Both the position numbers and the translations under genes were made by a program. Below, piece after piece: positions 28,716-53,616 of a DNA stretch of 53,616 bases. How positions within the stretch are numbered: the first letter of the stretch is position 1; every line of letters starts with the position of its first letter. Source of the DNA: Sulfuricurvum sp. (GTDB taxonomy: Bacteria > Campylobacterota > Campylobacteria > Campylobacterales > Sulfurimonadaceae); the NCBI RefSeq assembly GCF_028712165.1, contig NZ_JAQTQR010000008.1, positions 1 through 53,616 on the forward strand, given 5' to 3'. The notes under the pieces were generated by a model. It ran no database searches. It saw nothing but the letters and a program-made list of their open reading frames with translations, and was not told the DNA's origin.

Positions 28716-29060
28716 ATGACGCATATCTACGGAATTAAAAATTGCGGCAGCGTTAAAAAAGCTCTTCAGTTTTTTGATATGCATTCTCTCCCATACACAT
28801 TTCATGATTTCAAGATTTCTCCCGTTTCCAGGGTAAAAATTGAATCATGGTTAAAAAAATCCGATATGAGTGTGTTGCTTAATACCAAAGGGACAACCTA
28901 TCGAACACTGGGAATTAAAGCGCTCAACCTGGACGAAAGCGGTAAAATAGAGTGGATGAGTAATCATAATCTCCTCCTTAAACGCCCTATTATTGAATAT
29001 AACGACAAACTAGTTGTCGGATATGATCAATCTCATTACGAAGGAATATTTCACTCATGA
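28716..29060 (+). CDS. ArsC/Spx-like (YffB type) thioredoxin-fold protein
   Basis: 114 residues. MTHIYGIKNCGSVKKALQFF has the N-terminal cysteine of the ArsC/Spx fold (Cys followed by Gly-Ser, not a CxxC), with LLNTKGTTYRTLGI in the middle and LLKRPIIEYNDKLVVGY near the end. The family includes glutathione-dependent arsenate reductases and YffB; the KNC motif and RPI loop are closest to YffB, whose role is unclear. Whether it reduces arsenate cannot be told. It overlaps pilT by four bases (ATGA). Confidence 0.82.
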   Translation: MTHIYGIKNCGSVKKALQFFDMHSLPYTFHDFKISPVSRVKIESWLKKSDMSVLLNTKGTTYRTLGIKALNLDESGKIEWMSNHNLLLKRPIIEYNDKLVVGYDQSHYEGIFHS

Positions 29061-39943: not shown

Positions 39944-40731
39944 AACTCTTTAGCATCTTTGGTGATCCGGTAAATCATTCACGCTCACCGCTGATGCATA
40001 ACAGTGTCTTTAAAACACTGGGAGTCAGTGCGTGCTATTCACGTACTCATCTCACCGACGGCTCGCAATTACGAAATGTTTTTGAAGCCAAAAAACTCAG
40101 TGGTGCCAACGTAACCGTCCCGCACAAAGAGGCGGCTTACGCACAATGCGATGAAGTGCGCGGGATTGCCAAAACGATCAAAGCCGTCAATACTCTCGTC
40201 TATGAAAAAGGGAAACTTATCGGCTATAACACCGATGCAGACGGTTTTATGAGTGCAATCCAGTCGTTCGGTCCTATCAAAAATGCATTGATTTTAGGCG
40301 GAGGAGGAACAGCACGTGCGCTCTCCATCGCATTACGTCAAGGTGAAATTACCCCGACTGTCCTCAACCGCTCATCCGGTCGGTTGGACTTTTTTATCCA
40401 AGAAGGGATAGAAGCATACTGCTGGAATGGTTTTACCGCGGACGATTATGATCTGATCATCAACACCACTTCGGCAGGACTCAGCGATGATGAATTACCG
40501 ATCCCAAGACCGCTGCTTATAGAACTCCTATCCCGTTCAAAAGGGGCGGTCGATGTTATCTACGGTAAAGAGACCCCGTTTTTACGCGAAATAAAAATCA
40601 GCGGCCTTCCGTACAAAGACGGTTCGGACATGCTTTTAGCACAGGGCGTGTTAGCGTCCTACCTCTTTCTCGGCGGGGAATTTTCCCTCAAAACCATCGA
40701 AGTGCCTATGCAGCACAGTTTTAGCCTGTAA
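39940..40731 (+). CDS. aroE: Shikimate dehydrogenase
   Basis: 263 residues. Substrate-binding motif NHSRSPLMHN, ANVTVPHKEAAYAQCDE with the catalytic Lys, GYNTDADGFM with the Asp, the NADPH loop GGGGTARALSIAL, and the C-terminal DGSDMLLAQGVLASYLFLGG. It reduces 3-dehydroshikimate to shikimate with NADPH. The same gene follows the SPOR gene in Campylobacter, where trpE is not in between. Overlaps with trpE (four bases) and modE (one base) indicate co-translation. Confidence 0.95.
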   Translation: MKLFSIFGDPVNHSRSPLMHNSVFKTLGVSACYSRTHLTDGSQLRNVFEAKKLSGANVTVPHKEAAYAQCDEVRGIAKTIKAVNTLVYEKGKLIGYNTDADGFMSAIQSFGPIKNALILGGGGTARALSIALRQGEITPTVLNRSSGRLDFFIQEGIEAYCWNGFTADDYDLIINTTSAGLSDDELPIPRPLLIELLSRSKGAVDVIYGKETPFLREIKISGLPYKDGSDMLLAQGVLASYLFLGGEFSLKTIEVPMQHSFSL

Positions 40732-41507
40732 TGAAGATCGACGGACGTTTTTGGCTCACCAAAAATGGGCAAAGCTTTTTAGGAACCGGACGGATAGAGC
40801 TGCTCGAGCGTATCGATAAGATCGGATCGATCCACGCTGCAGCCAAAGAGATGAAAATGAGCTACAAGGCAGCATGGGAGCGTATTAACGGTATGAATGC
40901 TCTCGCCGATCAGCCTCTCATCGAACGGACAACCGGAGGCAAAGGGGGCGGAGGGACAAAACTCACCCCCTATGCGAGAGAACTGATCGCGACATTCCAC
41001 CGTTTCAACGAGCTTCACCGCCAGTTCATCGACCGATTCTCAGAAGCGGGAAATGATCCCGAACGTCTGGCACGAATCCTGAGCCGTACATTCCTCACCA
41101 CCAGTGCACGTAATCAACTCCCGAGTGTTCTCAAAGAGATTCAAACAAACGGCCTGCACTCTACCCTCACACTCGCCCTCAGCGGTTCAGATGTCATGCG
41201 CTCAACCATTACCGCCAAATCAGTTCTTAACATGGGTCTTACGGTAGGATGCGATACCTACGCGATTATCAAATCAAGCGATATCCATGTCGTCTCCACT
41301 CCGCCCTCTTCCGATACCGAAGATAATGTCCTCGCCGGTACCGTTGAAACCCTCGAAACTTCGGGAGACAATATCGAAATCGGCCTGCGCCTAAACGGAG
41401 GCACACTCCTCATCGCCCTCGAAAAACAAGATGCATTGCAAAAGTTAAAAGTTGGCACCACTGCTTACGCCATTATTTCGCCGTTGCATATTATTATTGG
41501 ATTGTAA
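40731..41507 (+). CDS. modE: Molybdate-responsive repressor ModE, full length with two Mop domains
   Basis: 258 residues. The N-terminal ~105 residues are the LysR-like winged helix-turn-helix of ModE (IDKIGSIHAAAKEMKMSYKA, WERINGMNALADQPLIERTT, GGKGGGGTKLTPYA). The rest is a tandem Mop/TOBE pair: ARNQLPSVLKEIQTNGLHST with STITAKSVLNMGLTVGC, and GTVETLETSGDNIEIGLRL ending in YAIISPLHIIIGL. These domains bind molybdate or tungstate and switch the dimer to its DNA-binding form. The gene is the last of the long operon and shares one base with aroE. Its likely targets are the CGTTATAT sites at 42951, 43028, 43875, 46000 and 52834. In Campylobacter jejuni ModE lacks the metal domain, so this is the complete type. 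Confidence 0.93.
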   Translation: MKIDGRFWLTKNGQSFLGTGRIELLERIDKIGSIHAAAKEMKMSYKAAWERINGMNALADQPLIERTTGGKGGGGTKLTPYARELIATFHRFNELHRQFIDRFSEAGNDPERLARILSRTFLTTSARNQLPSVLKEIQTNGLHSTLTLALSGSDVMRSTITAKSVLNMGLTVGCDTYAIIKSSDIHVVSTPPSSDTEDNVLAGTVETLETSGDNIEIGLRLNGGTLLIALEKQDALQKLKVGTTAYAIISPLHIIIGL

Positions 41508-41513
41508 TACCCG

Positions 41514-41544
41514 CCCGTCATTCCCGACTTGATCGGGAATCCAG
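41514..41544 (+). repeat. Short palindromic repeat, copy 1 (CCCGTCATTCCCGACTTGAT type)
   Basis: ATTCCCGA-CTTGA-TCGGGAAT is a perfect 8-bp palindrome with a 5-base loop, followed by CCAGTTTTTC, so it could terminate the modE operon seven bases after its stop. A reversed copy lies at 41979-42008. Units of this type (GTCATTCCCG...CGGGAATCCAG) are dispersed in many bacterial genomes. Confidence 0.8.
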
Positions 41545-41641
41545 TTTTTCTAATCAAATTATTAAAAAATGCAAAATAGTTAATAACTTTTGGCAATTAT
41601 ATTTGTTAAAATTGTCTTTCGATCAATACAAAGGAAATCAA

Positions 41642-41946
41642 ATGAATAAAATCATTGAGCTGGAAACAATCTTAGAACACAATGGGTATAACGAATTGCT
41701 AGAAGCCTGTAAAGCCATAGTTGGATCAGATGGTACAGAAATAGGGATGTCTAAATCTATTAATGAAGATGGAATGAAAGAAGCGATGGGTACACTAAAA
41801 GTATATTGGCTTAAACAAAAATTACGATACTTGAACATAAAGAAGTCTTTGAACGCGAATGTAAAAATCTTGGATTAATCCCAGATAAATTTATTAAAGA
41901 TATATATGACGATGTAATGAAAATCGAAGCATTTTTAGACTCCTAA
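41642..41946 (+). pseudogene. Small orphan gene split by a -1 frameshift
   Basis: The ATG at 41642 has AAAGGA six bases upstream and reads 78 codons to a stop at 41878. From the A run at about 41816-41820 (CAAAAATTACG), the -1 frame continues with plausible coding sequence (ITILEHKEVFERECKNLGLI, then PDKFIKDIYDDVMKIEAFLDS; shown in parts) to TAA at 41944. One added A would restore a ~101-residue protein; alternatively the run allows slippage. The upstream part (MNKIIELETILEHNGYNELL) matches nothing I know. AT-richer than neighbours. It lies between two inverted copies of a palindromic repeat, which suggests acquired DNA. A real mutation, a sequencing slip or programmed slippage cannot be told apart here. 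Confidence 0.65.
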
Positions 41947-41970
41947 TCTCCCCTCCTTAAATGGAGATTT
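41945..41970 (+). terminator. Terminator-like hairpin after the frameshifted gene
   Basis: AATCTCC and GGAGATT pair around an 11-base loop, directly at the stop codon of the restored frame. This placement supports 41944-41946 as the original end of the gene. Confidence 0.5.
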
Positions 41971-41978
41971 AGCTTATA

Positions 41979-42008
41979 GCTGGATTCCCAATCTAGTCGG
42001 GAATAACA
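41979..42008 (-). repeat. Short palindromic repeat, copy 2 (inverted)
   Basis: On the minus strand it reads GTTATTCCCGACTAGATTGG then GAATCCAGC, matching copy 1 at 41514-41544 with a few changes. The two copies flank the frameshifted gene in opposite orientation. Confidence 0.8.
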
Positions 42009-42020
42009 AACACCTTTTTC

Positions 42021-42083
42021 CCCGTTCGTGGTGAGCTAGTCGAACCATGAATATGCACCCTTCGACAAGCTCAGGGCGAACGG
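42021..42083 (-). repeat. Dispersed palindromic repeat, copy 2 (inverted)
   Basis: On the minus strand it begins CCGTTCGCCCTGAGCTTGTC and ends GAGCTCACCACGAACGG-like (here CTAGCTCACCACGAACGGG), matching copy 1 at 30650-30707, with a few extra bases in the loop. It can form a long imperfect hairpin. Confidence 0.8.
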
Positions 42084-42134
42084 AATCAATCTTCCTTTAT
42101 TCACTTTTGAACAAGAATCTACAATCGTTTTAGC

Positions 42135-42770
42135 TTAACAAGTCGCAACACTAAATGCACTTCCTATAGCACTTGCAATAAAATTTATGATTTCTGTTGT
42201 TACTCTCGCTTTGTTAAAAACGATATCGCATAAGATTGCAAAAACTAGCCCGAGATAGGCTAGATACCCAAATCCGACATAATCATTGTAGAGTATTGTA
42301 TAAAACCAATTTTGCTCAAATAGATAAAAATACGAGCTAATGGCTGTGGAGAAAAATATGAGTGTGCCGGGTAAAAACAAATGTTCAGTGGCTTGCGGTT
42401 TCAAAAATGATACCCAGAATAATAAGATAAACACGAGCGAGTTTACACCAAGAAATATTCTAATATCCATTGTTAATTTCTCAACAATCTCATTATATTT
42501 TGATTGCGTAAAATCTGCCAGTTTATCTTTAGCCTTTTCTAGTTTTAGACGTAAATCTTTGGAAGAATTGACAAAGATTTTTTCAACAGTTTTATATTGA
42601 GATGAATTAATAAAATCGACTCTTTCATTTAGTTCGCTCTGTAGTTTCCACTCAATAAAATCTTTACCCGATTTTTCAATGATTGTGGGATCAGAAAAGG
42701 TAAAAAGGAATAACGGAAGAAAAAGCAAGATTCCAAATAGTCCAAGGCCTCTAAGCAAATATATTTTCAA
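42135..42770 (-). CDS. Orphan integral membrane protein
   Basis: 211 residues. Segment 1 (LLRGLGLFGILLFLPLFLFTF) is a signal anchor or first helix; then about 75 charged, helical residues (NSSKDLRLKLEKAKDKLADF) likely face the periplasm or form a coiled coil; three to four further helices follow (FLGVNSLVFILLFWVSFL, LIFFSTAISSYFYLF, YLAYLGLVFAILCDIVF and IINFIASAIGSAFSVAT). No family is recognised. AT-rich, on the strand opposite to its neighbours, and flanked by dispersed repeats on its 3' side, so it may be acquired. Function unknown. Confidence 0.6.
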   Translation of the reverse strand: MKIYLLRGLGLFGILLFLPLFLFTFSDPTIIEKSGKDFIEWKLQSELNERVDFINSSQYKTVEKIFVNSSKDLRLKLEKAKDKLADFTQSKYNEIVEKLTMDIRIFLGVNSLVFILLFWVSFLKPQATEHLFLPGTLIFFSTAISSYFYLFEQNWFYTILYNDYVGFGYLAYLGLVFAILCDIVFNKARVTTEIINFIASAIGSAFSVATC

Positions 42771-42943
42771 AAATCTTCCTTTATATATTTTCAGTTGTCA
42801 ATATTCTACTCAGAAAACAGAATTGAGATAAAAAATAAAAGCAATATATTAACGATATATAATACTACAAAATGCCTTATCACAATATGATACTTTTATA
42901 ACATATTTTGATCAACTGTCGGACAAGTTTAAGACTTTTTTCT

Positions 42944-42949
42944 TATAAT
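42944..42949 (+). promoter_or_regulatory. -10 promoter element of modA
   Basis: TATAAT directly followed, one base later, by a ModE-like operator, placing the operator over the transcription start. Confidence 0.65.
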
Positions 42950-42950
42950 T

Positions 42951-42974
42951 CGTTATATCTTACAAAACACAACG
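42951..42974 (+). promoter_or_regulatory. ModE operator-like site, modA promoter
   Basis: CGTTATAT - 8 bases - ACACAACG. The E. coli modA operator has the same half-sites and spacing (CGTTATAT-N8-ACATAACG), so the right half differs by one base. Its position at the expected transcription start suits repression by ModE. Confidence 0.75.
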
Positions 42975-43027
42975 AAAATGTCACGTTTTTTTACGAACCG
43001 TTTTTGCACAAGTGAATTTGTAATTTT

Positions 43028-43051
43028 CGTTATATCAAAACAGATACTAAG
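43028..43051 (+). promoter_or_regulatory. Second ModE-like site before modA
   Basis: CGTTATAT - CAAAACAG - ATACTAAG. The left half is perfect and the right half weak. It overlaps the start of the modA ribosome site, so it might be a secondary operator or chance. Confidence 0.5.
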
Positions 43052-43059
43052 GAGTTTCC

Positions 43060-43815
43060 ATGAAACTGATTAAAATTGTATTGGCATCCCTCGCGTTTGC
43101 CTCCGCACTCGCTGCGCAAACGATTACTGTTGCCGCTGCAGCCAATATGAAATATGCTGTTGCCGACATCGCTAAAGCATTTACTGAAGAGAGCGGAATC
43201 GGTGTCAAAATCATCACCGGTGCTTCCGGAAAACTTACACAGCAAATCATGAGCGGTGCACCGTATGATGCGTTTCTCTCTGCCGATGTCGAATTTCCGA
43301 CAAAACTTTCTCAAGGCGGGTTTACAACGACTCCGGCTCAAGTGTATGCGTACGGAACACTTATCCTCTGGAGCGATACCGGTGCTGATCTCTCTAAAGG
43401 TGTTGCGGTTGTTACAGATCCATCCGTTAAAAAGATTGCTATTGCCAACCCTAAAACCGCCCCTTACGGTACAGAAGCCATGAACACGATGAAATTTTAC
43501 AAAGTTGCCGATGCTGTCGCATCCAAACTCGTCACAGCGGAATCCATCTCCCAAGTAGGAAGCTATGTAACAACAAAAGCGGTCGATATCGGGTTTATGG
43601 CAAAATCCATCGTCCTCTCACCTGAGATGAAAAATGTCGGTAAATGGGTCGAAGTCGATCCTAAATCGTATAACACAATCGATCAGGCGATGGTAGGGCT
43701 CAAAAACGGTACCCCTGAAAATCAGATCGCCGCTAAAAAATTCCTCCGATTTATGTCCTCTGCCAAAGCATTAGAAATTTTAAAAGCGAGCGGATACGGT
43801 TTACCGAAAAAATAA
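43060..43815 (+). CDS. modA: Periplasmic molybdate-binding protein
   Basis: 251 residues with a signal peptide (LIKIVLASLAFASALAAQ). The mature protein starts TITVAAAANMKYAVADIAKAF, and has GASGKLTQQIMSGAPYDAFLSADVEFP (shown in two parts: GASGKLTQQI, APYDAFLSAD), IANPKTAPYGTEAMNTMKF and FLRFMSSAKALEILKASGYG, the ModA pattern including the Ser and Asn-Pro oxyanion contacts. It binds molybdate and tungstate and delivers them to ModBC; these are not adjacent. AAGGAG is the ribosome site. A -10 box and two ModE-like sites precede it. Confidence 0.93.
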   Translation: MKLIKIVLASLAFASALAAQTITVAAAANMKYAVADIAKAFTEESGIGVKIITGASGKLTQQIMSGAPYDAFLSADVEFPTKLSQGGFTTTPAQVYAYGTLILWSDTGADLSKGVAVVTDPSVKKIAIANPKTAPYGTEAMNTMKFYKVADAVASKLVTAESISQVGSYVTTKAVDIGFMAKSIVLSPEMKNVGKWVEVDPKSYNTIDQAMVGLKNGTPENQIAAKKFLRFMSSAKALEILKASGYGLPKK

Positions 43816-43817
43816 CT

Positions 43818-43836
43818 TGGCCTCGCCTGAGGCATG
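43818..43836 (+). other. Short hairpin after modA
   Basis: GCCTC-GCCT-GAGGC, five bases after the modA stop, with no T tail. It may stabilise or attenuate the transcript; function unknown. Confidence 0.45.
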
Positions 43837-43874
43837 ATTACGACAGACACAGCCAAATGACTTTGCTTCTGCAT

Positions 43875-43898
43875 CGTTATATCAAAAAACATATAAGG
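43875..43898 (+). promoter_or_regulatory. ModE operator-like site before the porin gene
   Basis: CGTTATAT - CAAAAAAC - ATATAAGG: one mismatch from a perfect inverted repeat. It ends on the ribosome site (AAGGAT) of the porin gene at 43906. Confidence 0.7.
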
Positions 43899-43905
43899 AT
43901 ATCAA

Positions 43906-45276
43906 ATGACAAAACTCAGTATTACTACAGCACTTATTTTAGGAACTTGTCTTATTGCCCAAGCGGCAGATGATTTGGCATCGGCATTTAAAGAGGGGAA
44001 ACTCGACGGCCGTCTCAGAGCCCAATATTTTGTGACCGATTGGGATGATGACGCCAAATACAGCGCAACCGGATTTGCTGTAGGGGGAAGTTTGATCTAT
44101 AAAACGGCACCGTTGTACGGTTTTAGTTTCGGAACGGGTCTGTATACCACACAGAATCCGGGCGGATGGACAGAAGCGGAGGATGGAAAATATGCCAATA
44201 CCTCAAAAGACCTTTTTGCTCGCGGTCCAGGATCGGCGTACAGCTATGGTGACGGATACGCCGTTTTAGCGCAAGCATATCTGCAATACGATATCGCCAA
44301 AAGCAAAATCAGAGCGGGTCGTATGCTCGTGACTAACCCATGGATGTCTCCTAACGATACCAAAATGATCCCGATCGCCTATGAGGGGATTGATTTTGTT
44401 TCCAAAGATATTCTCAACACAACTATACAGTTGGACTATATTGACAAGATAAAAGAACGGGGAATGGATTATTTCGGAAGCATGGCCGAAACGCTCGATA
44501 CGCCGACAAAAATCAGCAACTATTATGATACCGGATACGGTACCGCTACGGTACGGCACGGAGATGCTCCCAATGTCAGCATTGTCGGCGTCACGAATAA
44601 ATCGATTGATAATCTCGAGCTCCAAGGATGGGTGATGCATTGGCCGGATTTGATCGATCATCTCCGTCTCGAAGCCAATTACGCACTGGAAGCGGGCGAT
44701 GTTATCCTCGGCTTCGGCGGTTTGTACATGAAACAATACGATCAAGGAGCCGGAGATATTATCCTGCCAAAAGCAAACAATTACGATAGCGATAACAGTG
44801 TAGACACCTATCTCTATGCACTGCGGGCAACCGCAAATTATCGTGCGGCAAAATTCCTGCTGGCAACATCCCATACGGACGGCGGCGGGGATATGATCGC
44901 TCCTTGGCGCGGATTCCCGACACAGGGCTATACACGCAGTATGACGCAAACCGATTGGAATGCGAATACAACCGCCTATAAAGCAGAGTTTGATTATGAC
45001 TGTGATGCCATCGTGTCGGGCGTAAGTACAATGCTCAGCTACGCCTATTATAACCGTGACCCGAGTAAAAAGCCGTACCAAAGTATGACCGACAGAGCCT
45101 ACGGAAACGGTGATACCCGTCAATGGAACTTTGATGTCGTGTATAAACTTTCCGGCAGCTGGAAAGGGACGGAACTCAAAGCCCGTCTGATGGATCAAAA
45201 CAATGAAAAATCAACGTTGGCAACGGCTGAAACTTCTAACCGCGAAATGCGTTTGGAAGCGAACTACCGATTTTAA
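43906..45276 (+). CDS. OprD-type outer membrane porin
   Basis: 456 residues with a signal peptide (ITTALILGTCLIAQA). AFKEGKLDGRLRAQYFVTDW at the mature start is the first strand pattern of OprD-family porins in this phylum, and alternating aromatic strands run to a final EANYRF, ending in Phe as outer-membrane barrels do. OprD relatives admit specific small solutes. The ModE-like site just upstream and its place between modA and the TonB genes suggest passage of molybdate or tungstate or their chelates, an inference. No lipid anchor is seen. The signature of the pore loops is not readable. Confidence 0.8.
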   Translation: MTKLSITTALILGTCLIAQAADDLASAFKEGKLDGRLRAQYFVTDWDDDAKYSATGFAVGGSLIYKTAPLYGFSFGTGLYTTQNPGGWTEAEDGKYANTSKDLFARGPGSAYSYGDGYAVLAQAYLQYDIAKSKIRAGRMLVTNPWMSPNDTKMIPIAYEGIDFVSKDILNTTIQLDYIDKIKERGMDYFGSMAETLDTPTKISNYYDTGYGTATVRHGDAPNVSIVGVTNKSIDNLELQGWVMHWPDLIDHLRLEANYALEAGDVILGFGGLYMKQYDQGAGDIILPKANNYDSDNSVDTYLYALRATANYRAAKFLLATSHTDGGGDMIAPWRGFPTQGYTRSMTQTDWNANTTAYKAEFDYDCDAIVSGVSTMLSYAYYNRDPSKKPYQSMTDRAYGNGDTRQWNFDVVYKLSGSWKGTELKARLMDQNNEKSTLATAETSNREMRLEANYRF

Positions 45277-45280
45277 TCTG

Positions 45281-45295
45281 TGCCCCTGCGGGGCA
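45281..45295 (+). terminator. GC-rich hairpin after the porin gene
   Basis: TGCCCC-TGC-GGGGCA, a perfect 6-bp stem five bases after the porin stop, without a T tail; a possible terminator or processing site. Confidence 0.5.
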
Positions 45296-45301
45296 TGAGC
45301 A

Positions 45302-45351
45302 GAGATGACAGGAAGGTTTGTCTGCGGTTATTCAATAAAACCTGTCATCTC
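45302..45351 (+). other. Perfect 11-bp inverted repeat before the globin gene
   Basis: GAGATGACAGG (45302-45312) and CCTGTCATCTC (45341-45351) enclose 28 bases. It lies 48 bases before the globin ATG and could be a leader structure or an operator. It does not contain the ModE half-site. Confidence 0.6.
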
Positions 45352-45399
45352 CCCTGATGCCCTACCTATATTATCTATATTTGAGTAAAAGGAAATGAA

Positions 45400-45978
45400 A
45401 TGAATCTCTTAATGTCTGATGGAAAACCGGTATCGATGTTTAGTGCCTGCGGAACCAAACCGTTCGAACCTGCCAGTATGACACCCAATACCGCCGAAGC
45501 CAAAATCGATTTTGTCTACCCTGTAGTTCCTTTTCCGACAACTAAGCTCTATCAGCAATGGGGAGAAGAAAATATCCGTAAAATGGTCCGCTACCATCAT
45601 GGGTTATTACGTAAAAGTGTCATCGGTAATCTCTTCCCAGCGGATGATACAATGTTTGCCTTTGCGACGGAAAAAACGGCAGACTTTTTTGTAGAGGCAT
45701 TGGGAGGAGAAAAACATTACACGCCTGTGCATGGTCATCCTGCATTACGAATGCGCCATTTTCATATCACTATCGATGAAAAAGGACGAGAGATCTGGCT
45801 AATGATGTATAAAAAAACGATCAATGATCTGGAAATGCCGTCTGAGTGTATCGAAGAGTTCTGGAACTGGATCGAGCCGCTTTCGATTCGAATGATCAAC
45901 CGACGAACGACCGTCGCACCGATCGAACGTCATCCGTATATATCGATATGGAATAAAATCAAAATTGAGGAAAATTAA
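45400..45978 (+). CDS. Truncated hemoglobin-like globin
   Basis: 192 residues. The core is a 2-on-2 globin: LYQQWGEENIRKMVRYHHGL, then NLFPADDTMFAF, and GHPALRMRHFHITIDEKGRE, where His120 in RMRH is the expected proximal heme ligand, then WLMMYKKTINDLEMP. It is longer than the usual ~125-140 residues, with about 45 extra residues at the N-terminus containing a Cys. Without a signal peptide it should be cytosolic. Truncated globins bind O2 or NO; its place ahead of tonB in a metal-uptake operon is unusual. It starts with AAAGGA seven bases upstream and is separated from tonB by one base. Confidence 0.8.
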   Translation: MNLLMSDGKPVSMFSACGTKPFEPASMTPNTAEAKIDFVYPVVPFPTTKLYQQWGEENIRKMVRYHHGLLRKSVIGNLFPADDTMFAFATEKTADFFVEALGGEKHYTPVHGHPALRMRHFHITIDEKGREIWLMMYKKTINDLEMPSECIEEFWNWIEPLSIRMINRRTTVAPIERHPYISIWNKIKIEEN

Positions 45979-45979
45979 G

Positions 45980-46753
45980 ATGTATTTTTTAAGCTCAATC
46001 GTTATATCAGAAAAGATACAACATAAGAATTTCTTATTAAAATTTAAATCATTCGGCGCTTCATTCGCTGTTCACAGTGCGGTATTAGCCGGAATTTTGT
46101 ATTTTATGACAACCCATCCGATCCTGATGGAACCGGAGGAAGAGAGAGTCATCATCTCCCTCTCGGAGTTCACTTCTACCTCCGGTGATCGAAATGTAAT
46201 GGAACATTCGCTCATCCAGAAACAAACACCGAAAACCCTTACGACGCCTAAAGCGAAAAGTACACCGAAAGAAGTGCATCCGACCCTAAAAACGACCCCT
46301 GAGAGGATACCGTCATTAACTCCTTCGGTGTCCTCTGAGGCGTCCGCGCCTCTAGCTCCACCTGCTCCAGTGTTATCGACTCCGCCATCATCACTCATTG
46401 ATTCTCCTCATGAGAGTGTTTCCTCCAAATCTGAAAACGAATTACCAAGAAACCTAGTTTCCAGCAACGAAATCGGCGGAGCGGCATTGGGAAATATACG
46501 GGCTATGATCGAACATGCAATCACCTACCCCGCAATCGCTCGTAAACTTCGTATCGAGGGTATTGTGGTGGTATCGTTTGTACTCAAACCTAACGGAATC
46601 GTAGAAGCCGCAAAAATAATCACGACGAGCGGCAGTACTCTTCTGGACACCAAAGCGATTCAAACGATTCTCAGCCTCAGCGGTGATTACCCCGCATTGG
46701 GAAAGACCTTTGAACTGAGTATCCCCATCGCATTTAACTTACACAAATCCTAA
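45980..46753 (+). CDS. TonB-like energy transducer
   Basis: 257 residues from ATG 45980, one base after the globin stop, so translation is probably coupled. One membrane anchor lies near residues 25-45 (FAVHSAVLAGILYFM), followed by a Pro/Thr/Lys/Ser-rich spacer and a C-terminal TonB domain: YPAIARKLRIEGIVVVSFVL, then SGSTLLDTKAIQTIL and the end ELSIPIAFNL. TonB carries ion-gradient energy from ExbB-ExbD to outer-membrane receptors; exbB and exbD are not in this window. A ModE-like site lies inside the first codons (46000). Its neighbours make it the likely partner of the receptors at 47782 and 52885. Confidence 0.88.
   Translation: MYFLSSIVISEKIQHKNFLLKFKSFGASFAVHSAVLAGILYFMTTHPILMEPEEERVIISLSEFTSTSGDRNVMEHSLIQKQTPKTLTTPKAKSTPKEVHPTLKTTPERIPSLTPSVSSEASAPLAPPAPVLSTPPSSLIDSPHESVSSKSENELPRNLVSSNEIGGAALGNIRAMIEHAITYPAIARKLRIEGIVVVSFVLKPNGIVEAAKIITTSGSTLLDTKAIQTILSLSGDYPALGKTFELSIPIAFNLHKS
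46000..46023 (+). promoter_or_regulatory. ModE operator-like site inside the 5' end of tonB
   Basis: CGTTATAT - CAGAAAAG - ATACAACA, two mismatches in the right half. It lies about 20 bases inside the tonB ORF, so it may be an operator for an internal promoter, a sign that tonB starts later, or chance. Confidence 0.5.
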
Positions 46754-46762
46754 AGGAATCTT

Positions 46763-47782
46763 ATGAATACGTTTCTGAAAATCCTCTTCTTATCGGTGAT
46801 CGTTCTCGCTGCACACGCGAAAACTGTGACGGATATGGACGGGCATCCCGCCATACTTCCGGATCAAACCGATCGAGTCTTCGGTTCATCTCCGCCGATG
46901 AACTATCTCATCTATGCGCTCAATCCAAATAAAATGATTGGTTTGAACTTTGCTGCAAAAAACGCCAATAATGGGGCCAATGAAAACTTCCTCAATCAAA
47001 AATTCCTTTCCCTTCCGGTAATCGGATCGTTTCACGGCGGCGGTCAAAGTATCAATCTCGAAACGCTGATGGCCTACAAACCGCAACTGGTTTTACTCTG
47101 GCAAGACGATATGATGGTGCAAACCGTACAGCGTGAAATCGAAAAAACCCATCTGCCGACTTTTATGATCCCGTTCCGTGAAGTTAACGATATGCCTCGC
47201 GCTTTTCGTCTGGCCGGTGCTGCAATCGGAGAGAGCAAACAGGCAAATATCCTAGCCAACTACTCTCAAAAAATAATCGATGAAGTCCATACCAGCGTCT
47301 CCAAAGCCAAACCGACACGCTACTACTACGCAGAAGGAACCGATGGACTTTCTACCGAATGCGATACCTCGTTTCATGTCGAAGCGCTTAATTTTGCCGG
47401 AGGCGAGAACGTCCATAAATGCCAACAAAGCGGTCTACTCGGCCTGGAAAAAATCAATTTTGAAAAACTTCTTACCTACAATCCGGATGTCATTATTGTC
47501 CAAAACAGAGCTGTCTATAACGACCTGATAGAGGATTCGCTCTGGAAAAATCTGCGCGCTGTTAAATCCGGCCGTATTTATCTCGTCCCTATCCAGCCGT
47601 TTAACTGGATCGACCGGCCGCCGTCGTTTATGCGGGTGATCGGAATCCAATGGCTGGCTCATCTGTTCCACCCAAAAGAGTACAAAGCCGACCTGAGTGT
47701 CCGAACAAAAGAGTTCTATGACCTTTTCTTACATGTAAAACTCAGCGATGAACAAGTCAAAAATCTATTAGGAGCCAATTAA
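46763..47782 (+). CDS. TroA/BtuF-type periplasmic binding protein (MolA-like), first copy
   Basis: 339 residues with a signal peptide (ILFLSVIVLAAHA). It starts KTVTDMDGHPAILPDQTDRV, like metal-chelate binding proteins of type II ABC importers. Two lobes are joined by a long helix, as suggested by LLLWQDD-like VLLWQDDMMVQTVQ and KPTRYYYAEGTDGLSTECDT (shown partly), with ECDTSFHVEALNFAGG as a likely ligand-facing segment, and VQNRAV, RPPSFMRVIGIQWLAHLFHP near the end. It is paralogous to the protein at 51829 (SPP near the start, GQ-N-E motif, ECD-SFH, RPPS-MR). The ligand may be molybdate or tungstate, as in Haemophilus MolA, but nickel, cobalamin or heme cannot be excluded. It shares one base with the next gene. 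Confidence 0.82.
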   Translation: MNTFLKILFLSVIVLAAHAKTVTDMDGHPAILPDQTDRVFGSSPPMNYLIYALNPNKMIGLNFAAKNANNGANENFLNQKFLSLPVIGSFHGGGQSINLETLMAYKPQLVLLWQDDMMVQTVQREIEKTHLPTFMIPFREVNDMPRAFRLAGAAIGESKQANILANYSQKIIDEVHTSVSKAKPTRYYYAEGTDGLSTECDTSFHVEALNFAGGENVHKCQQSGLLGLEKINFEKLLTYNPDVIIVQNRAVYNDLIEDSLWKNLRAVKSGRIYLVPIQPFNWIDRPPSFMRVIGIQWLAHLFHPKEYKADLSVRTKEFYDLFLHVKLSDEQVKNLLGAN

Positions 47783-50022
47783 TGAAACTCTCACCTATCC
47801 TTCTCTCTCTCGCCGCATGTGCGATACTCGCCGCAGACCCGCTGGGGATCGAGCGAATCGTTATTACTGACACCGTCGATGATGGTGATGCAATGATACT
47901 CGATAGCAATCAAAGCGGTGCAAATCAATCATTCGGTACCAAAAGTATCGCCACCCTCTCGACTCAGGCGAATATGAATCCCTACAGCGTTATCGCCTAT
48001 TCGCCGTCAGTCAACTTTACCCCTGTCGATCAGGCCGGATCAAACGAACCTTCCTATCATGATCCTATCCGTATACGCGGAAAAAGCCAAAGCGGTCCCG
48101 GCGGTGTCTATATGATCGACGGTATGCCGATCTCCAGCAATCCGGGAGGGGGAAAACAACTCGTTGATATGGAAAATGTCAGTTCGATCGATCTGCTCAA
48201 AGGGTATCTCCCAGCCGATAAAAACCTCGGCTTCTCCAGCCTCATCGGTAAAGTCGATCTGAATCTCCTGAGTGCAAAATCGAAAGCCGGAGCCGAAGTG
48301 TCCCAATCATTTGGTTCGGATAATTTCCAACGTACTTTTGTACGTTTCGATTCGGGTAAAATCGGCGATGTTGCGGTATTCGGTTCTTTCTCCCATCTCT
48401 CTAATGACAAAACCAAAGGCGAAGGCGATCTCAAACGTCTCAACGGTACTCTCGGCCTGACCTACACCCCTACAAATACGTTCAAAGCCAAAGTAACCGC
48501 TATCCGTAACTCAGACGATCACCACAACTACTATAACCTCTCATACGCCGAAGCGAATAATTTAGGGGCTAATTTCAACAAAGATTTTGCCATGACTCAA
48601 CCGAGCGCATCCAATGATGTCAACTATTACGACTGGAACAAACAAAGTTTCCTGACTACGGCTCTTTTGGGAGAATTCGAATACAAGCCGACTACGAATG
48701 ATGCAATCACGATCAAACCGTATTATAAAAAAGATGAGGGAGACTATTGGTTCTCCAAATTCGATACAACTGCCGCCAAACAGCGTGTTATGAACTGGCG
48801 AATGGAGCATGACCTCTACGGTGCAACCGCAGCGTACGATCATGAGTTTTCCGAAGCGCTGAAAACTAAAATCGGGTATTGGTACCACAAGCAGCTCCCT
48901 CCCGGGCCTCCGAGCGATCAAATCAAATACAGAGTGGTTAACGGTGCTTTGGTATTTGATGGCTATGCGGTTCTCGCCGATAACGACTATCATACGCTCC
49001 AAGCACCGTTTGCCCAAATCAGCGGTACGATCGACCGTTTTACGTATGTTGCCGGTGCACAATACCAAACGTTTAAACTCGGCTCGCTTAAAAGCCATAC
49101 CAACGGTAATCAAACATCTGCAGCAAATCCAGACTATGATGCCGCAATCGCATCGACTGCCATCGATCCGTGGGCAAGCGTAGATGCTAAAACTTTTAAT
49201 ACGTTTATTCCGTCGCTCTACCTCGGATATACGATTTCTCCATCGACCATGGCATATCTCGATTATTCGCGTACCTATGGGTTCGACGTTAACCTTTTCC
49301 CGACCTATATTTCCAATCGTGCCAGTTTTGTAGCTCAAAACGTCACGTTGCAACAGCTATGGGACAAACTCGATTTGGAACTCTCCGACAATATCGATCT
49401 CGGAGTTAAAACAACCCTCGGAGGACTCACTCTCAATCCGAGCCTATATGTCTCGTTCGTACAAAACAAACAAGCCAATATCTATGATCCCTCATTCGGT
49501 GTCAATTATCCTGCCAATGTCGGAGATGCACTTGGATACGGTGCGGAATTCTCGGCATACGGTCCGATCAGCGAAGATTTGGAATTGTTGCTAGGTCTCT
49601 CGTACAATCGCTATCAATTCACCCAAAACTTCCAAAGCGGAGCTTCTTCAACCGTTGAAACCGACGGTAAACAGCTCCCTGACGCTCCGAAATACATGGC
49701 GAAAGCGGCGCTTTCATATCACCTGGGAGACTGGACGCTCACCCCGAGTGCCCGCTACACCTCCAGTCGATGGGGAGATGTTGCCAATACCCAAAAGATA
49801 GATGCCTTTACCCTTGTTGATTTCGACGCAGCATACCGTATCGCACAGTTTATGGGATCTCGTAACGCCCTTTTCCGTCTGACAGCTACCAATCTGACAA
49901 ACGAAAAATACATCGCTACGATCAATGCCGCCGATAACTTCTTGGCGGCAACCGGCACGGCAAGTACCTACAATACGGGTGCACCGTTCGGACTTTATGG
50001 CAGCATCAATCTGAAGTTTTAA
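47782..50022 (+). CDS. TonB-dependent outer membrane receptor, first copy
   Basis: 746 residues with a signal peptide (LSPILLSLAACAILAA). A TonB box-like ERIVITDT follows, then the plug: RIRGKSQSGPGGVYMIDGMP, VDMENVSSIDLLKGYLPADK and GKVDLNLLSAKSK. The rest is the 22-strand barrel, ending in ...LYGSINLKF with a terminal Phe. It takes up a scarce metal or chelate across the outer membrane using TonB. The plug is clearly homologous to the partial receptor at 52885 (MENVS, KG, SFG-DNF-RTF, R-DSGK). Overlaps the binding-protein gene by one base. Confidence 0.92.
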   Translation: MKLSPILLSLAACAILAADPLGIERIVITDTVDDGDAMILDSNQSGANQSFGTKSIATLSTQANMNPYSVIAYSPSVNFTPVDQAGSNEPSYHDPIRIRGKSQSGPGGVYMIDGMPISSNPGGGKQLVDMENVSSIDLLKGYLPADKNLGFSSLIGKVDLNLLSAKSKAGAEVSQSFGSDNFQRTFVRFDSGKIGDVAVFGSFSHLSNDKTKGEGDLKRLNGTLGLTYTPTNTFKAKVTAIRNSDDHHNYYNLSYAEANNLGANFNKDFAMTQPSASNDVNYYDWNKQSFLTTALLGEFEYKPTTNDAITIKPYYKKDEGDYWFSKFDTTAAKQRVMNWRMEHDLYGATAAYDHEFSEALKTKIGYWYHKQLPPGPPSDQIKYRVVNGALVFDGYAVLADNDYHTLQAPFAQISGTIDRFTYVAGAQYQTFKLGSLKSHTNGNQTSAANPDYDAAIASTAIDPWASVDAKTFNTFIPSLYLGYTISPSTMAYLDYSRTYGFDVNLFPTYISNRASFVAQNVTLQQLWDKLDLELSDNIDLGVKTTLGGLTLNPSLYVSFVQNKQANIYDPSFGVNYPANVGDALGYGAEFSAYGPISEDLELLLGLSYNRYQFTQNFQSGASSTVETDGKQLPDAPKYMAKAALSYHLGDWTLTPSARYTSSRWGDVANTQKIDAFTLVDFDAAYRIAQFMGSRNALFRLTATNLTNEKYIATINAADNFLAATGTASTYNTGAPFGLYGSINLKF

Positions 50023-50027
50023 GGGCT

Positions 50028-51050
50028 ATGATGAAAAATATCAAACCGATCAGTTGGATAATCGGCTCGACGCTCCTTTTGATCGTTGTTGCTACACTAT
50101 CTCTACTCTGGGGGCAATATCCGATCACTCTCGATACGTTGATCAGCTATCTCCAATTTAAAGCATTCGGAGGGGCTGGAAACGATACCTACACGATGCT
50201 CGATAACATCATCTTGCAAATCCGTCTGCCGCGCGTTCTGCTGGCCATCCTCATAGGATCTGCCCTGGCTACATCGGGCGCCGCATTTCAGGCGATGTTC
50301 GTCAATCCCCTGGTCTCTCCCGGAATCTTGGGAGTACTCGCGGGTGCATCATTCGGTGCGGCGATGGGAATGCTCATCTCGGATCAATGGTTTGTCGTCC
50401 AATTACTCGCCTTTGCATTCGGTTTTGTCGCCGTCGGGGTCGCAGTACTCATCGGCACGATGGTAACCAACTCCCGATCCACCGTGATGCTGGTACTCGG
50501 AGGCGTCATCAGCAGTGCCCTTTTCACTTCGATGCTCTCAATCATCAAATACCTCGCCGATCCGTACAGTACCCTTCCCGCTATCGTCTACTGGCTGATG
50601 GGAAGTCTGACCATGGCGGATCTGCACGGTGTATTGCTCATCTGTGTTCCGATGCTCGCCAGTGTCATCGGACTGATCGTTTTAGGGAAATATTTCGATC
50701 TCATGAGTTTGGGAGATGAAGAGGCAAAAGCGTTGGGGATCAATGTTACGATGGTTCGGCTGGGGGCCATTATTCTGGCGACGATCGCAAGCTCTCTCTC
50801 AGTCGTCATGGCAGGGATAATCGGGTGGATCGGTCTTATCATCCCCCATATCATCCGTATGGCGGTTGGCCCTTCGCACCGTTTGCTGATGCCCCTCTCG
50901 GCAATAGTGGGCGGAGCATTTTTGCTCCTCGCCGATACGATTTCACGACTGGCATTCAGCGTCGAAGTCCCGATCGGGATTCTCACTTCGCTTATCGGTA
51001 TCCCCGTCTTTATCATCGTACTTAAAAACGCGAGGGCAGCATGGAACTAA
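50028..51050 (+). CDS. FecCD/BtuC-type ABC importer permease (MolB-like)
   Basis: 340 residues with about ten membrane segments, the BtuC fold. Signature parts are LRLPRVLLAILIGSALATSG-like (here IRLPRVLLAILIGSALATSG), GAAFQAMFVNPLVSPGILGV, LLGGVISSALF-like VLGGVISSALFTSM, YWLMGSLTMADLHG, LGDEEAKALGINVTMVRL and the coupling helix GWIGLIIPHIIRM. It forms the channel for the binding protein's ligand. ATG 50028 or 50031 are both possible; AAGGG lies just upstream, making 50031 better spaced. It overlaps the ATPase gene by ten bases. Confidence 0.93.
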   Translation: MMKNIKPISWIIGSTLLLIVVATLSLLWGQYPITLDTLISYLQFKAFGGAGNDTYTMLDNIILQIRLPRVLLAILIGSALATSGAAFQAMFVNPLVSPGILGVLAGASFGAAMGMLISDQWFVVQLLAFAFGFVAVGVAVLIGTMVTNSRSTVMLVLGGVISSALFTSMLSIIKYLADPYSTLPAIVYWLMGSLTMADLHGVLLICVPMLASVIGLIVLGKYFDLMSLGDEEAKALGINVTMVRLGAIILATIASSLSVVMAGIIGWIGLIIPHIIRMAVGPSHRLLMPLSAIVGGAFLLLADTISRLAFSVEVPIGILTSLIGIPVFIIVLKNARAAWN

Positions 51051-51832
51051 AACCAATCATCACGGTCAATGACCTTCATTTTTCCTATCCAAAGCGCCCT
51101 GTGTTAGAGGGGATCGATTTTACCCTCCGCCGCGGCGAAGTAGTAAGCCTGTTGGGACCGAACGGCTGCGGCAAAAGTACCCTGATTCGTCTCATCCTCA
51201 AGCTTATACATGCTTCGCAGGGCGAAATATGGCTCAATGAAAAAACCCTGCATCGCTATTCACACCGTGAGATAGCAGAACATATCGCCTATATTCCGCA
51301 GTATAACAACGTCCCATTCAATTACAGCGTAATAGAAATGGTCATCATGGGTCGCATCTCCAAACTCGGATTTTTCGCCGCCCCATCAGCATCTGACTAT
51401 ACGATTGCCCATGAAGCATTGGAGAGGGTCGGGATTTCTGATTTGGCATCCCGTCCTTTCGGTCAGCTCAGCGGCGGACAAAAACAGATGGTGCTTCTCG
51501 CCCGCGCACTTACCCAAGGGGTCGATACCTTTATTATGGATGAGCCGGTATCGGGTCTGGATTACGGCAACCAAATCCGTCTTTTGGAACTGATCGTCTC
51601 ACTCAGCTCACAGGGCTACACGTTTCTCAAAACAACCCATTACCCCGATCATGCCCTGCTGGTCTCCAGCCGTGTCGCAGTCATGAACGGCGGTAAAATC
51701 ATCGCCGACGGTCTGCCTGAGGAGGTCATCACCCCTGAAATGATCCGTAGCGTCTACGGAATCGAAGCCGACCTCATCGTCCACGATACCCACATCCGCT
51801 GTCTTCCTATTTTCAATAAAGGAACCCTATGA
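51041..51832 (+). CDS. ABC importer ATPase, FecE/BtuD-type (MolC-like)
   Basis: 263 residues. Walker A GPNGCGKSTL, Q-loop YIPQYNNVPFNYS, signature LSGGQKQMVLLARAL, Walker B FIMDEPVSGLD and the switch His in TTHYPDHALL are all present. Two copies drive the permease encoded immediately upstream. It overlaps the permease by ten bases and the next binding-protein gene by four (ATGA). Confidence 0.95.
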   Translation: MELKPIITVNDLHFSYPKRPVLEGIDFTLRRGEVVSLLGPNGCGKSTLIRLILKLIHASQGEIWLNEKTLHRYSHREIAEHIAYIPQYNNVPFNYSVIEMVIMGRISKLGFFAAPSASDYTIAHEALERVGISDLASRPFGQLSGGQKQMVLLARALTQGVDTFIMDEPVSGLDYGNQIRLLELIVSLSSQGYTFLKTTHYPDHALLVSSRVAVMNGGKIIADGLPEEVITPEMIRSVYGIEADLIVHDTHIRCLPIFNKGTL

Positions 51833-52806
51833 AACTTTTATCTCTCTTCATTTTCCTATTAATATTTTCTAATATTATTGAAGCGCGGAGTATTACCGAT
51901 GATTTCGGCCGTGTAGTTACCGTACCCGATAAAATCACCAAAATTTATTCTGTATCGCCCCCTATCACCATCAGTGTAACGGCATTTGATCCCTCTCTTG
52001 TTGCGGCACTAAACTTTCCGTTCAAAGAGGATCAAAAACCCTACGTCGGTGTTGCCGCATCCAAACCGGTAGCAGGTGGGTATTTCGGTCAAGGACAAAC
52101 CCCTAATTTCGAAAACATAGCCGCAATCAAACCCGATGTCATCCTGATGTGGGGGAAATCGACAGGTGCAGAGAATGAATTAAAAAAACTCTCCATGCTC
52201 GGTATTCCCGTGTTAATGGTACATAATGAATCGATCAACGACCTCGTAGGGCAATTTGAACTTTTAGGAAAACTCACCGGAAATACAAAACGCGCTTCCG
52301 AACTGATGCACTATACCAAAGAGACGTTGGGGCTTATCCAATCACTGCAAGCCAAAGTGAATGCCCGAAAAGATGTCCGTTATTACTTCGCCGAAAGTCT
52401 GGACGGATTTGCCAGCGAATGCGACGGGTCGTTTCACCTCGAACCGTTCACCTACAGCGGAGCCAAAAATGCTCTCAACTGTAAAATGTCTTCCAACTAC
52501 GGGATGGAAAAAATCTCGATGGAAACGATCCTACTTGCCGATCCCGATGTTATCGTAGCGATGGAGGGGGCATTTGCATCCTCAGTAAAAAGCAATCCGC
52601 AATGGCAAAGCCTCAGAGCCGTTAAAACAGGACACGTGCTCACCGTCCCTACCGTACCGTTTAACTATATTAGCCGTCCACCCTCGCTTATGCGGCTGAT
52701 GGGAATACGATGGCTTATCCACTCGTTTTATCCCGATCTGATCAAACCGATCGATCAAGAGGAAAAACGGTTTATTAAACTCTTCTTCCCCCAATATAAA
52801 CACTAA
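51829..52806 (+). CDS. TroA/BtuF-type periplasmic binding protein (MolA-like), second copy
   Basis: 325 residues with a signal peptide (LFIFLLIFSNIIEA). After it, RSITDDFGRVVTVPDKITKI, SVSPPITISVTAFDPS and GQGQTPNFENIAAIKPDVIL (the last is within the limit) match the first copy at 46763; ECDGSFHLEPFTYSGAKNAL and RPPSLMRLMGIRWLIHSFYP are the other shared blocks. It probably feeds the same permease, perhaps with a second ligand or affinity. The ATG overlaps the ATPase stop. A ModE-like site and the second receptor follow 28 bases after its stop. Confidence 0.82.
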   Translation: MKLLSLFIFLLIFSNIIEARSITDDFGRVVTVPDKITKIYSVSPPITISVTAFDPSLVAALNFPFKEDQKPYVGVAASKPVAGGYFGQGQTPNFENIAAIKPDVILMWGKSTGAENELKKLSMLGIPVLMVHNESINDLVGQFELLGKLTGNTKRASELMHYTKETLGLIQSLQAKVNARKDVRYYFAESLDGFASECDGSFHLEPFTYSGAKNALNCKMSSNYGMEKISMETILLADPDVIVAMEGAFASSVKSNPQWQSLRAVKTGHVLTVPTVPFNYISRPPSLMRLMGIRWLIHSFYPDLIKPIDQEEKRFIKLFFPQYKH

Positions 52807-52833
52807 CAGGGAGGAGAAGTTTTTTTTACAAAA

Positions 52834-52857
52834 CGTTATATCAAATATGATATATAG
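52834..52857 (+). promoter_or_regulatory. ModE operator-like site before the second receptor
   Basis: CGTTATAT - CAAATATG - ATATATAG: left half perfect, right half with two mismatches to the inverted repeat. It lies 27 bases before the receptor ATG in an AT-rich promoter-like stretch. Confidence 0.65.
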
Positions 52858-52884
52858 AATAATAAAAACTTAAGGATTACTATC

Positions 52885-53616
52885 ATGAATCACAACGTAA
52901 AATCAAATTCTAATTTTATTAGAATAAGTTGTATAGCATCAGCCTTGCTATTACCATTTTATAGCATCATGGCTAATGATACAAACGCATCTAAATCTTA
53001 CACTCTAGAGAAAATAGAAGCAACTTACGAGGAACAAGACAATTCTATATATGCTAAAGAGCCTGATAACGCTAAAAGCACCAATACATTGAGTAAAAAA
53101 GCACTCAATACAATCGGTGGCCCGGCTCAAACAAATTACTATAAAGCGATTGACATACTTCCAGGTGTTAATGTTCAAACATCCGATGCTCTTGGAATAT
53201 CTAATGGTCAGAATATCAAAATACGTGGAAAAAGTGCTTTTCATATTGGCAGGACGGTAGAAGACCTTCCGCTAACAGGTATTGTTGGGACAAATGGTAT
53301 GGGTGGCGGAGAACTTTTTGATATGGAAAATGTTAGTGAGCTAAATGTTTACAAGGGTGCAATAGCTTCCGATAAAGGTTTTTCTCTATCAACATCTACA
53401 GGTGTAGTTAACGCAAATCTCCTCTCACCATCAGATAATCTAGGATTTTCAATCAAACAAAGTTTCGGAACGGATAATTTTAGACGAACTTTTGGTAGGG
53501 TTGATAGCGGGAAGCTTTCAACCGATAGTTCATTTTTTCTCTCCTATTCAGATACAGCTGGTGATAAATGGAAAGGTGAAGGTGGAGCACCTGATGGAAA
53601 GCACAATGTAAACTTC
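52885..53616 (+). CDS. TonB-dependent outer membrane receptor, second copy, partial
   Basis: The first 244 residues are in the window; the gene continues past its end. TAAGGAT gives the ribosome site before ATG 52885. A signal peptide (CIASALLLPFYSIMA) precedes the plug: TLEKIEAT as a TonB box-like start, IDILPGVNVQTSDA, NIKIRGKSAF, LFDMENVSELNVYKGAIASD, TGVVNANLLSPS, and QSFGTDNFRRTFGRVDSGK. These align with the receptor at 47782, so it is a paralogue. It is clearly AT-richer than its neighbours, which suggests separate acquisition. It should take up a related ligand, under ModE-type control. Confidence 0.88.
   Translation, partial: MNHNVKSNSNFIRISCIASALLLPFYSIMANDTNASKSYTLEKIEATYEEQDNSIYAKEPDNAKSTNTLSKKALNTIGGPAQTNYYKAIDILPGVNVQTSDALGISNGQNIKIRGKSAFHIGRTVEDLPLTGIVGTNGMGGGELFDMENVSELNVYKGAIASDKGFSLSTSTGVVNANLLSPSDNLGFSIKQSFGTDNFRRTFGRVDSGKLSTDSSFFLSYSDTAGDKWKGEGGAPDGKHNVNF

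Follow-up and report, generated by a model that had tools for sequence, protein, structure and literature searches.

Genes at the right end of the window

The window, i.e., the whole stretch of 53,616 nucleotides that was analysed, is the entire contig C15 of a 2.72 Mb genome in 130 contigs; among named organisms, it is most closely related to Sulfuricurvum and other Campylobacterales. The genome encodes a molybdenum nitrogenase (nifD, E=7e-251), and with it a demand for molybdenum. The genes and sites described below are on the + strand unless otherwise stated. The gene for the molybdate-responsive regulator ModE (40731-41507) is the only one in the genome, and it lies 1.4 kb upstream of the sites described below. 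Its 258-aa product, with a helix-turn-helix and two Mop/TOBE domains, was matched by NF007957 (E=1e-44 over residues 16-256, below that model's cut-off), by TIGR00637 (95.4 bits, or 97.4 in the genome scan, slightly below the cut-off of 98.5) and by TIGR00638 (above the cut-off). It is homologous over its full length to E. coli ModE (1o7l/1b9m, E=2.7e-28), and in this alignment the recognition helix SYKAAWERINGMN is near-identical to the E. coli helix SYKSAWDAINEMN, and the GGKGGGG and TSARNQ stretches are kept; the SARN residues we take to be molybdate contacts.

The next genes of interest are modA (43060-43815), which encodes the only molybdate-binding protein of this type in the genome (TIGR01256, 163.8 bits, above the cut-off), and a gene for an OprD-family porin (43906-45276; PF03573, E=5e-16), which in many relatives comes after modA or a ModE site. 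They are followed by a truncated globin (45400-45978; PF01152), with 4nk1 as its closest match among solved structures (E=4e-48), and by tonB (45980-46753; PF03544, TIGR01352), for the energy-transducing protein. The genes from there to the contig end encode a periplasmic binding protein, PBP1 (46763-47782; PF01497), closest to 4pag (E=1e-83) and related to HI_1472 (3psa, E=2e-12); a TonB-dependent receptor, TBDR1 (47782-50022; PF00593/PF07715); a FecCD-type permease (50028-51050) and its ABC ATPase (51041-51832; PF00005); a second binding protein, PBP2 (51829-52806; PF01497; 4pag, E=4e-48); and the N-terminal 244 residues of a second receptor, TBDR2 (52885-53616), which is cut by the contig end and matches residues 1-245 of one receptor in L059 (83%).

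Five palindromic sites with the geometry of the E. coli ModE operator

The octamer CGTTATAT occurs five times on the + strand, at 42951, 43028, 43875, 46000 and 52834, which are the positions listed in a preliminary description of this DNA. That description had noticed no further copy in the window, and here it has to be corrected, since a sixth copy is found on the - strand (28997-29004), within coding sequence and with only 1/8 matches at the N8 partner position. The inverted half-site after an 8-base spacer, which it had reported for each copy, was recovered: when spacers of 0-19 were scanned, N8 was the top inverted-partner offset at all five + strand copies (tied for 42951), with 6/8, 5/8, 7/8, 6/8 and 6/8 matches to ATATAACG at 42951, 43028, 43875, 46000 and 52834, respectively. 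Read as whole palindromes (inverted CGNTATAT / ATATANCG half-sites with 8 bases between them), all five match at 13-15 of 16 positions, and four of the copies share the longer core CGTTATATCA. The operator of E. coli K-12 modA, CGTTATAT-TGTCGCCT-ACATAACG, 19 bp before modA, has the same half-sites and N8 spacing, so that the likeness to the ModE operator already proposed is confirmed; this upstream site (L092:2047-2070) scores 15/16, and the runner-up in 6.5 kb scores 11. The published ModE consensus ATCGNTATATA-N6-TATATANCGAT (PMC545781) is the same geometry in another notation.

The bare octamer was discarded as evidence, because it is not significant alone (6 copies versus 2.1 expected, and 6 were reached in 4 of 100 shuffles). 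The 24-mer CGTTATAT-N8-ATATAACG, with up to 3 mismatches, was found in the window at exactly the five sites, where 0.36 were expected, and none of 100 dinucleotide shuffles contained five. It is because of this second half-site at N8 that the five are counted as real. With a weight matrix derived exclusively from relatives' sites, which had been one of the checks proposed, the five sites were the top five of the window (25.6, 25.1, 22.9, 21.7 and 18.8 bits); the next window site reached 10.3 bits, and the maximum over 100 shuffles was 18.5.

It had also been foreseen that the motif might prove frequent at random in the genome. Judged by the counts of a control pattern, this does not apply at up to 1 mismatch (3 sites versus 0) and mostly does not at up to 2 (9 versus 3), where the pattern is mostly specific, but it does apply at up to 3 (25 versus 21), where the scan is unspecific. 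Weak sites were dropped for that reason, among them C22:20862, which lies inside an ammonium-transporter-like ORF. C115:21062 and C49:10641 are doubtful as ModE sites. The former (L018:4063-4086), with two mismatches, is 7 bases before an ORF that by eye looks like a cytochrome b561 type, and it may be genuine or a chance match.

Placement of the predicted operators

Three placements can be distinguished, i.e., at a start site, at a ribosome-binding site and within tonB. Operator 1 (42951-42974, 14/16) belongs to the start-site class: the modA promoter TTTAAG-n10-TATAAT (42928-42949) has its -10 TATAAT at 42944-42949, 1 bp upstream of the operator. Equivalents of operator 1 are kept upstream of modA or mod genes in the genus. 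Among 231 oriented sites collected, 34 have a TATAAT-like hexamer ending 1-2 bp upstream, versus about 1-2 at most other offsets, and the hexamer is typically part of TTTAAG...TATAAT; with a -10 at this distance, the operator would cover the start site. At operators 2-5 no clear -10 element was found 1-2 bp upstream. A generic sigma-70 scan of the region was near chance (11 matches versus 7.7), with the modA -10 among the matches.

Operator 2 (43028-43051), the weakest with 13/16, reaches into the modA ribosome-binding site and is conserved in L048, L049 and L056. Operator 3 (43875-43898, 15/16) is 7 bp before the porin ATG, and its right half fuses with the porin ribosome-binding site; the right halves of both operators depart from the motif where AAGG(AG) is needed. 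Operator 5 (52834-52857, 14/16) is upstream of TBDR2, and its equivalents precede TBDR2 or the next receptor in L049, L051, L052 and L059. The preliminary description had correctly placed sites before modA, the porin and the second receptor, and had left the site at 46000 unexplained. This site, operator 4 (46000-46023, 14/16), is inside tonB, over codons 7-15. It begins exactly 20 bases after the tonB ATG, and the +20 offset was found in 8/8 tonB homologues examined, where the gene upstream of tonB varies (globin in Sulfuricurvum, modC or others elsewhere). The first C of the operator falls on the third position of codon 7. This codon may stand for Ile, Val or Thr, but its last base is C throughout, and codon 8 is invariably GTT; as read from these sequences, the constancy of the two codons argues for selection on the DNA.

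Conservation in related genomes

When the related genomes were scanned, as had also been proposed, the pattern with up to 1 mismatch gave 41 sites in 61 family genomes, versus 4 for the reversed control. The 37 ModE-positive genomes accounted for 34 sites (control, 1) and the 24 ModE-negative genomes for 7 (control, 3). Presence of a site was associated with presence of ModE with a Fisher p=0.009, a value that is no strict probability because the genomes are related. Forty-three relative loci were selected by the DNA pattern alone, and 37 of them adjoin relatives of modA, modB/C, modE, the porin, a receptor, a PBP or the globin; in 5 of the 6 exceptional loci the site is inside an ORF, as chance matches would be. 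TBDR1, permease, ATPase, PBPs and tonB have one gene order in Sulfuricurvum and Sulfurovum relatives, adjoining modE/modA. In L048, from a genus neighbour, modE-modA-...-tonB-PBP-TBDR-FecCD-FecE-PBP and modD-mop-modB-modC are in a single run. Relatives of TBDR1 are also found directly upstream of modC-modA-modB on Desulfocapsa and Acidithiobacillus contigs (L061, L062), whose ModA and ModB were confirmed by TIGR01256 and TIGR02141.

Extension to other contigs

The set of sites and genes extends beyond the one first described, onto contigs C49 and C76. The end piece of C49 (41352-41997) encodes the C-terminal 215 residues of TBDR2, which match (88%) residues 545-759 of the same L059 receptor that the window piece (52885-53616) matches, and the next two genes after it likewise correspond to L059. 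Because both contig ends carry ends of one receptor gene, C15 probably adjoins C49 across a gap of about 0.9 kb. The gene run after operator 5 very probably continues, across this predicted junction, with a PBP, a luciferase-like monooxygenase, a globin, receptors and PBPs, methyltransferases, ModD (TIGR01334), a Mop-like protein, modB and modC, and such a run from operator 5 to modBC would explain why modA is apart from modBC. On C49 a perfect palindrome, CGTTATATCATTTAGGATATAACG, precedes a second globin, with TATAAT 2 bp upstream, and the sites C49:19676 and C49:19780 precede a molbindin; C76:3561 precedes another receptor-PBP pair.

Some further genes were seen in these regions. Divergent from a molbindin, L016:5142-5651 encodes a putative membrane protein of 170 aa with no Pfam match; a perfectly symmetric ModE-like site, CATTATATCAAAAAAGATATAATG, is directly upstream of it, and homologues of the protein recur next to receptors in L051 and L052. 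Between the receptor/PBP pairs and modD-mop-modBC (L016:12801-19327 and L021, on C49) there are recurring luciferase-like monooxygenases and members of two methyltransferase families; these C49 enzymes possibly make or break a metal ligand.

A globin subfamily associated with TBDR1 and ModE sites

The truncated globins encoded at 45400-45978 of the window, L016:4404-4931 and L021:4795-5406 are three 4nk1-like paralogues. In the 61 family genomes, this globin subfamily was present in 10 and TBDR1 (>500 bits) in 9, with both in 8 (Fisher p=1e-7), and the two are usually a few kb apart. A ModE site was found within about 1.5 kb at 9/10 globin-subfamily loci and at 0/20 loci of generic truncated globins; without the window locus, 8/9 subfamily loci have a site (p=2e-6). 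Across the family, then, the 4nk1-like globins share both genomes and loci with TBDR1 and ModE sites, which does not hold for the generic globins of those genomes. We know of no link of the 4nk1 globin, the closest solved relative, to molybdenum, nor of an earlier regulatory context for its subfamily, which here is tied to ModE sites and TBDR1. As a guess, the globin might handle oxygen, or the imported ligand together with the monooxygenases.

Predicted control by ModE, and alternatives

The idea of one ModE regulon in the preliminary description withstood every computational test, with modE adjacent, enrichment in the family and molybdenum-gene neighbourhoods all in line with a predicted binding. 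We consider it very likely that the five copies serve as operators for the product of modE (40731-41507), controlling molybdate/tungstate-repressed TonB-dependent uptake, a reading that passes from the observed sites, statistics, conservation, gene content and E. coli-like geometry to a predicted binding, repression, operon structure and cargo. In such a mechanism, molybdate- or tungstate-loaded ModE would bind each imperfect palindrome as a dimer and repress. It would cover the start site at operator 1, 1 bp downstream of the modA -10, overlap the modA and porin ribosome-binding sites at operators 2 and 3, and sit within the first tonB codons at operator 4, while operator 5 would head a long co-directional gene run, onto C49 up to modD-mop-modBC. 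Under molybdate or tungstate shortage, ModE would release the DNA, and ModA, the porin, the globin, TonB, the receptors, the binding proteins and the MolB-like importer would be made. Together these would carry molybdenum or tungsten, probably in chelated form, through both membranes by an energised route. Since the annotation of E. coli ModE is that of a dual regulator, the sign of regulation may differ at some operators.

The main alternative concerns the cargo. The sites could be ModE operators and the receptor and FecCD-type genes could still import iron, heme or cobalamin, co-regulated through the iron or B12 demand of molybdoenzymes. For the permease, the ATPase and the binding proteins, the matching family models indicate B12, heme and siderophore transport, and the closest solved receptors to TBDR1 are siderophore/metallophore receptors (CntO, FoxA, FhuA); these matches are weak (E about 1e-7), so the cargo of TBDR1 rests on context. 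Against iron, heme or cobalamin, the top PDB match of the permease is 2nq2 (HI1471, E=3e-60), ahead of FhuB, HmuU and BtuC, and HI1471 is the MolB of a molybdate importer. TBDR1 relatives occur, moreover, in mod operons outside the phylum. Control by Fur or cobalamin is unsupported: no Fur box was found before the receptor or tonB genes (the best match right of 42 kb, 13/18, is inside coding sequence, and the best of the window, 14/18 at 1981, is far outside the region, all against the E. coli consensus, from which the host's may diverge), and no Rfam match, hence no cobalamin riboswitch, was found in 40000-53616. Import of iron, heme or cobalamin by these genes is therefore judged unlikely.

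ModE-repressed TonB-dependent uptake of molybdate/tungstate is what we infer from this context. The cargo is likely to be molybdate or tungstate, or a chelate of either; the chelate is hypothetical, and is considered because bare oxyanions cross through porins. As a tentative extension, which we hold to be possible rather than probable, there may be a dedicated ModE-repressed TonB pathway for a Mo/W chelate (metallophore), in which several receptor/PBP pairs would import it, the globin, luciferase-like monooxygenases and methyltransferases would handle the ligand, and the tonB operator would co-switch outer-membrane energisation.

It is far less probable that the copies at ribosome-binding sites and in tonB work as RNA hairpins that mask the start codon and are not ModE operators. 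Operators 2 and 3 do overlap a ribosome-binding site, operator 4 is in a coding region, and the palindromes could fold, A+U-rich and with 8-base loops; but the same sequence and spacing are present at promoters and in the E. coli DNA operator, no Rfam family matched in 40000-53616, and the pattern co-occurs with ModE across genomes. That the five are chance repeats of an A+T-rich octamer can be dismissed for practical purposes: shuffles do yield six octamers in 4/100 cases and 3-mismatch sites are as common genome-wide as controls, but the palindrome (5 versus 0.36 expected, 0/100 shuffles), the gap of more than 8 bits under the relatives-only matrix and site positions kept over several genera all speak against it.

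Comparison with known systems and significance

The ModE operator type was already known, and the half-site, the N8 centre and modA as a target are common to E. coli and Sulfuricurvum. Unlike E. coli, Sulfuricurvum has two operators before modA and one in tonB, further operators before porin, receptor, globin and molbindin genes, and modA separate from modBC; the E. coli K-12 stretch compared carries only modF, modE, acrZ, modABC, ybhA and pgl. For Geobacter and further bacteria, ModE regulons have been predicted with an E. coli-type consensus; they include modDABC, transport systems, a CoA-transferase, a tRNA and nucleases in the sections of PMC545781 and PMC2700814 that describe them, and those sections do not name TonB-dependent receptors or a globin, both of which are in the Sulfuricurvum set. 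In H. influenzae, the region HI1469-1473 was deleted to remove the type II molybdate/tungstate importer MolBC-A (PMC4031551), and HI1471 and HI1472 are sequence relatives of the permease and binding protein described here. In Sulfuricurvum, unlike MolBC-A, two receptors and tonB are interspersed among the importer genes, which have ModE sites; the MolBC-A paper does not mention TonB and terms MolBC-A regulation poorly understood (PMC4031551).

What is new is the intragenic operator and the composition of the regulon, with two receptor systems within the window, further ones on other contigs, a permease nearest to MolB, TonB, and a globin subfamily tied to TBDR1. A literature search for ModE-controlled TonB-dependent receptors found no paper, an absence that is no proof, and database predictions of ModE-linked outer-membrane receptors presumably exist. 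The operator held at +20 in tonB offers a clear example of a predicted regulatory site embedded in coding sequence, and the ModE regulon gives the globin subfamily the first regulatory context known to us. Outer-membrane passage of molybdate and tungstate is usually ascribed to passive porins. A ModE regulon with tonB, receptors and PBPs makes active, regulated uptake of molybdenum or tungsten across the outer membrane directly testable in nitrogen-fixing Campylobacterota, and receptor families annotated as siderophore-type gain a likely cargo.
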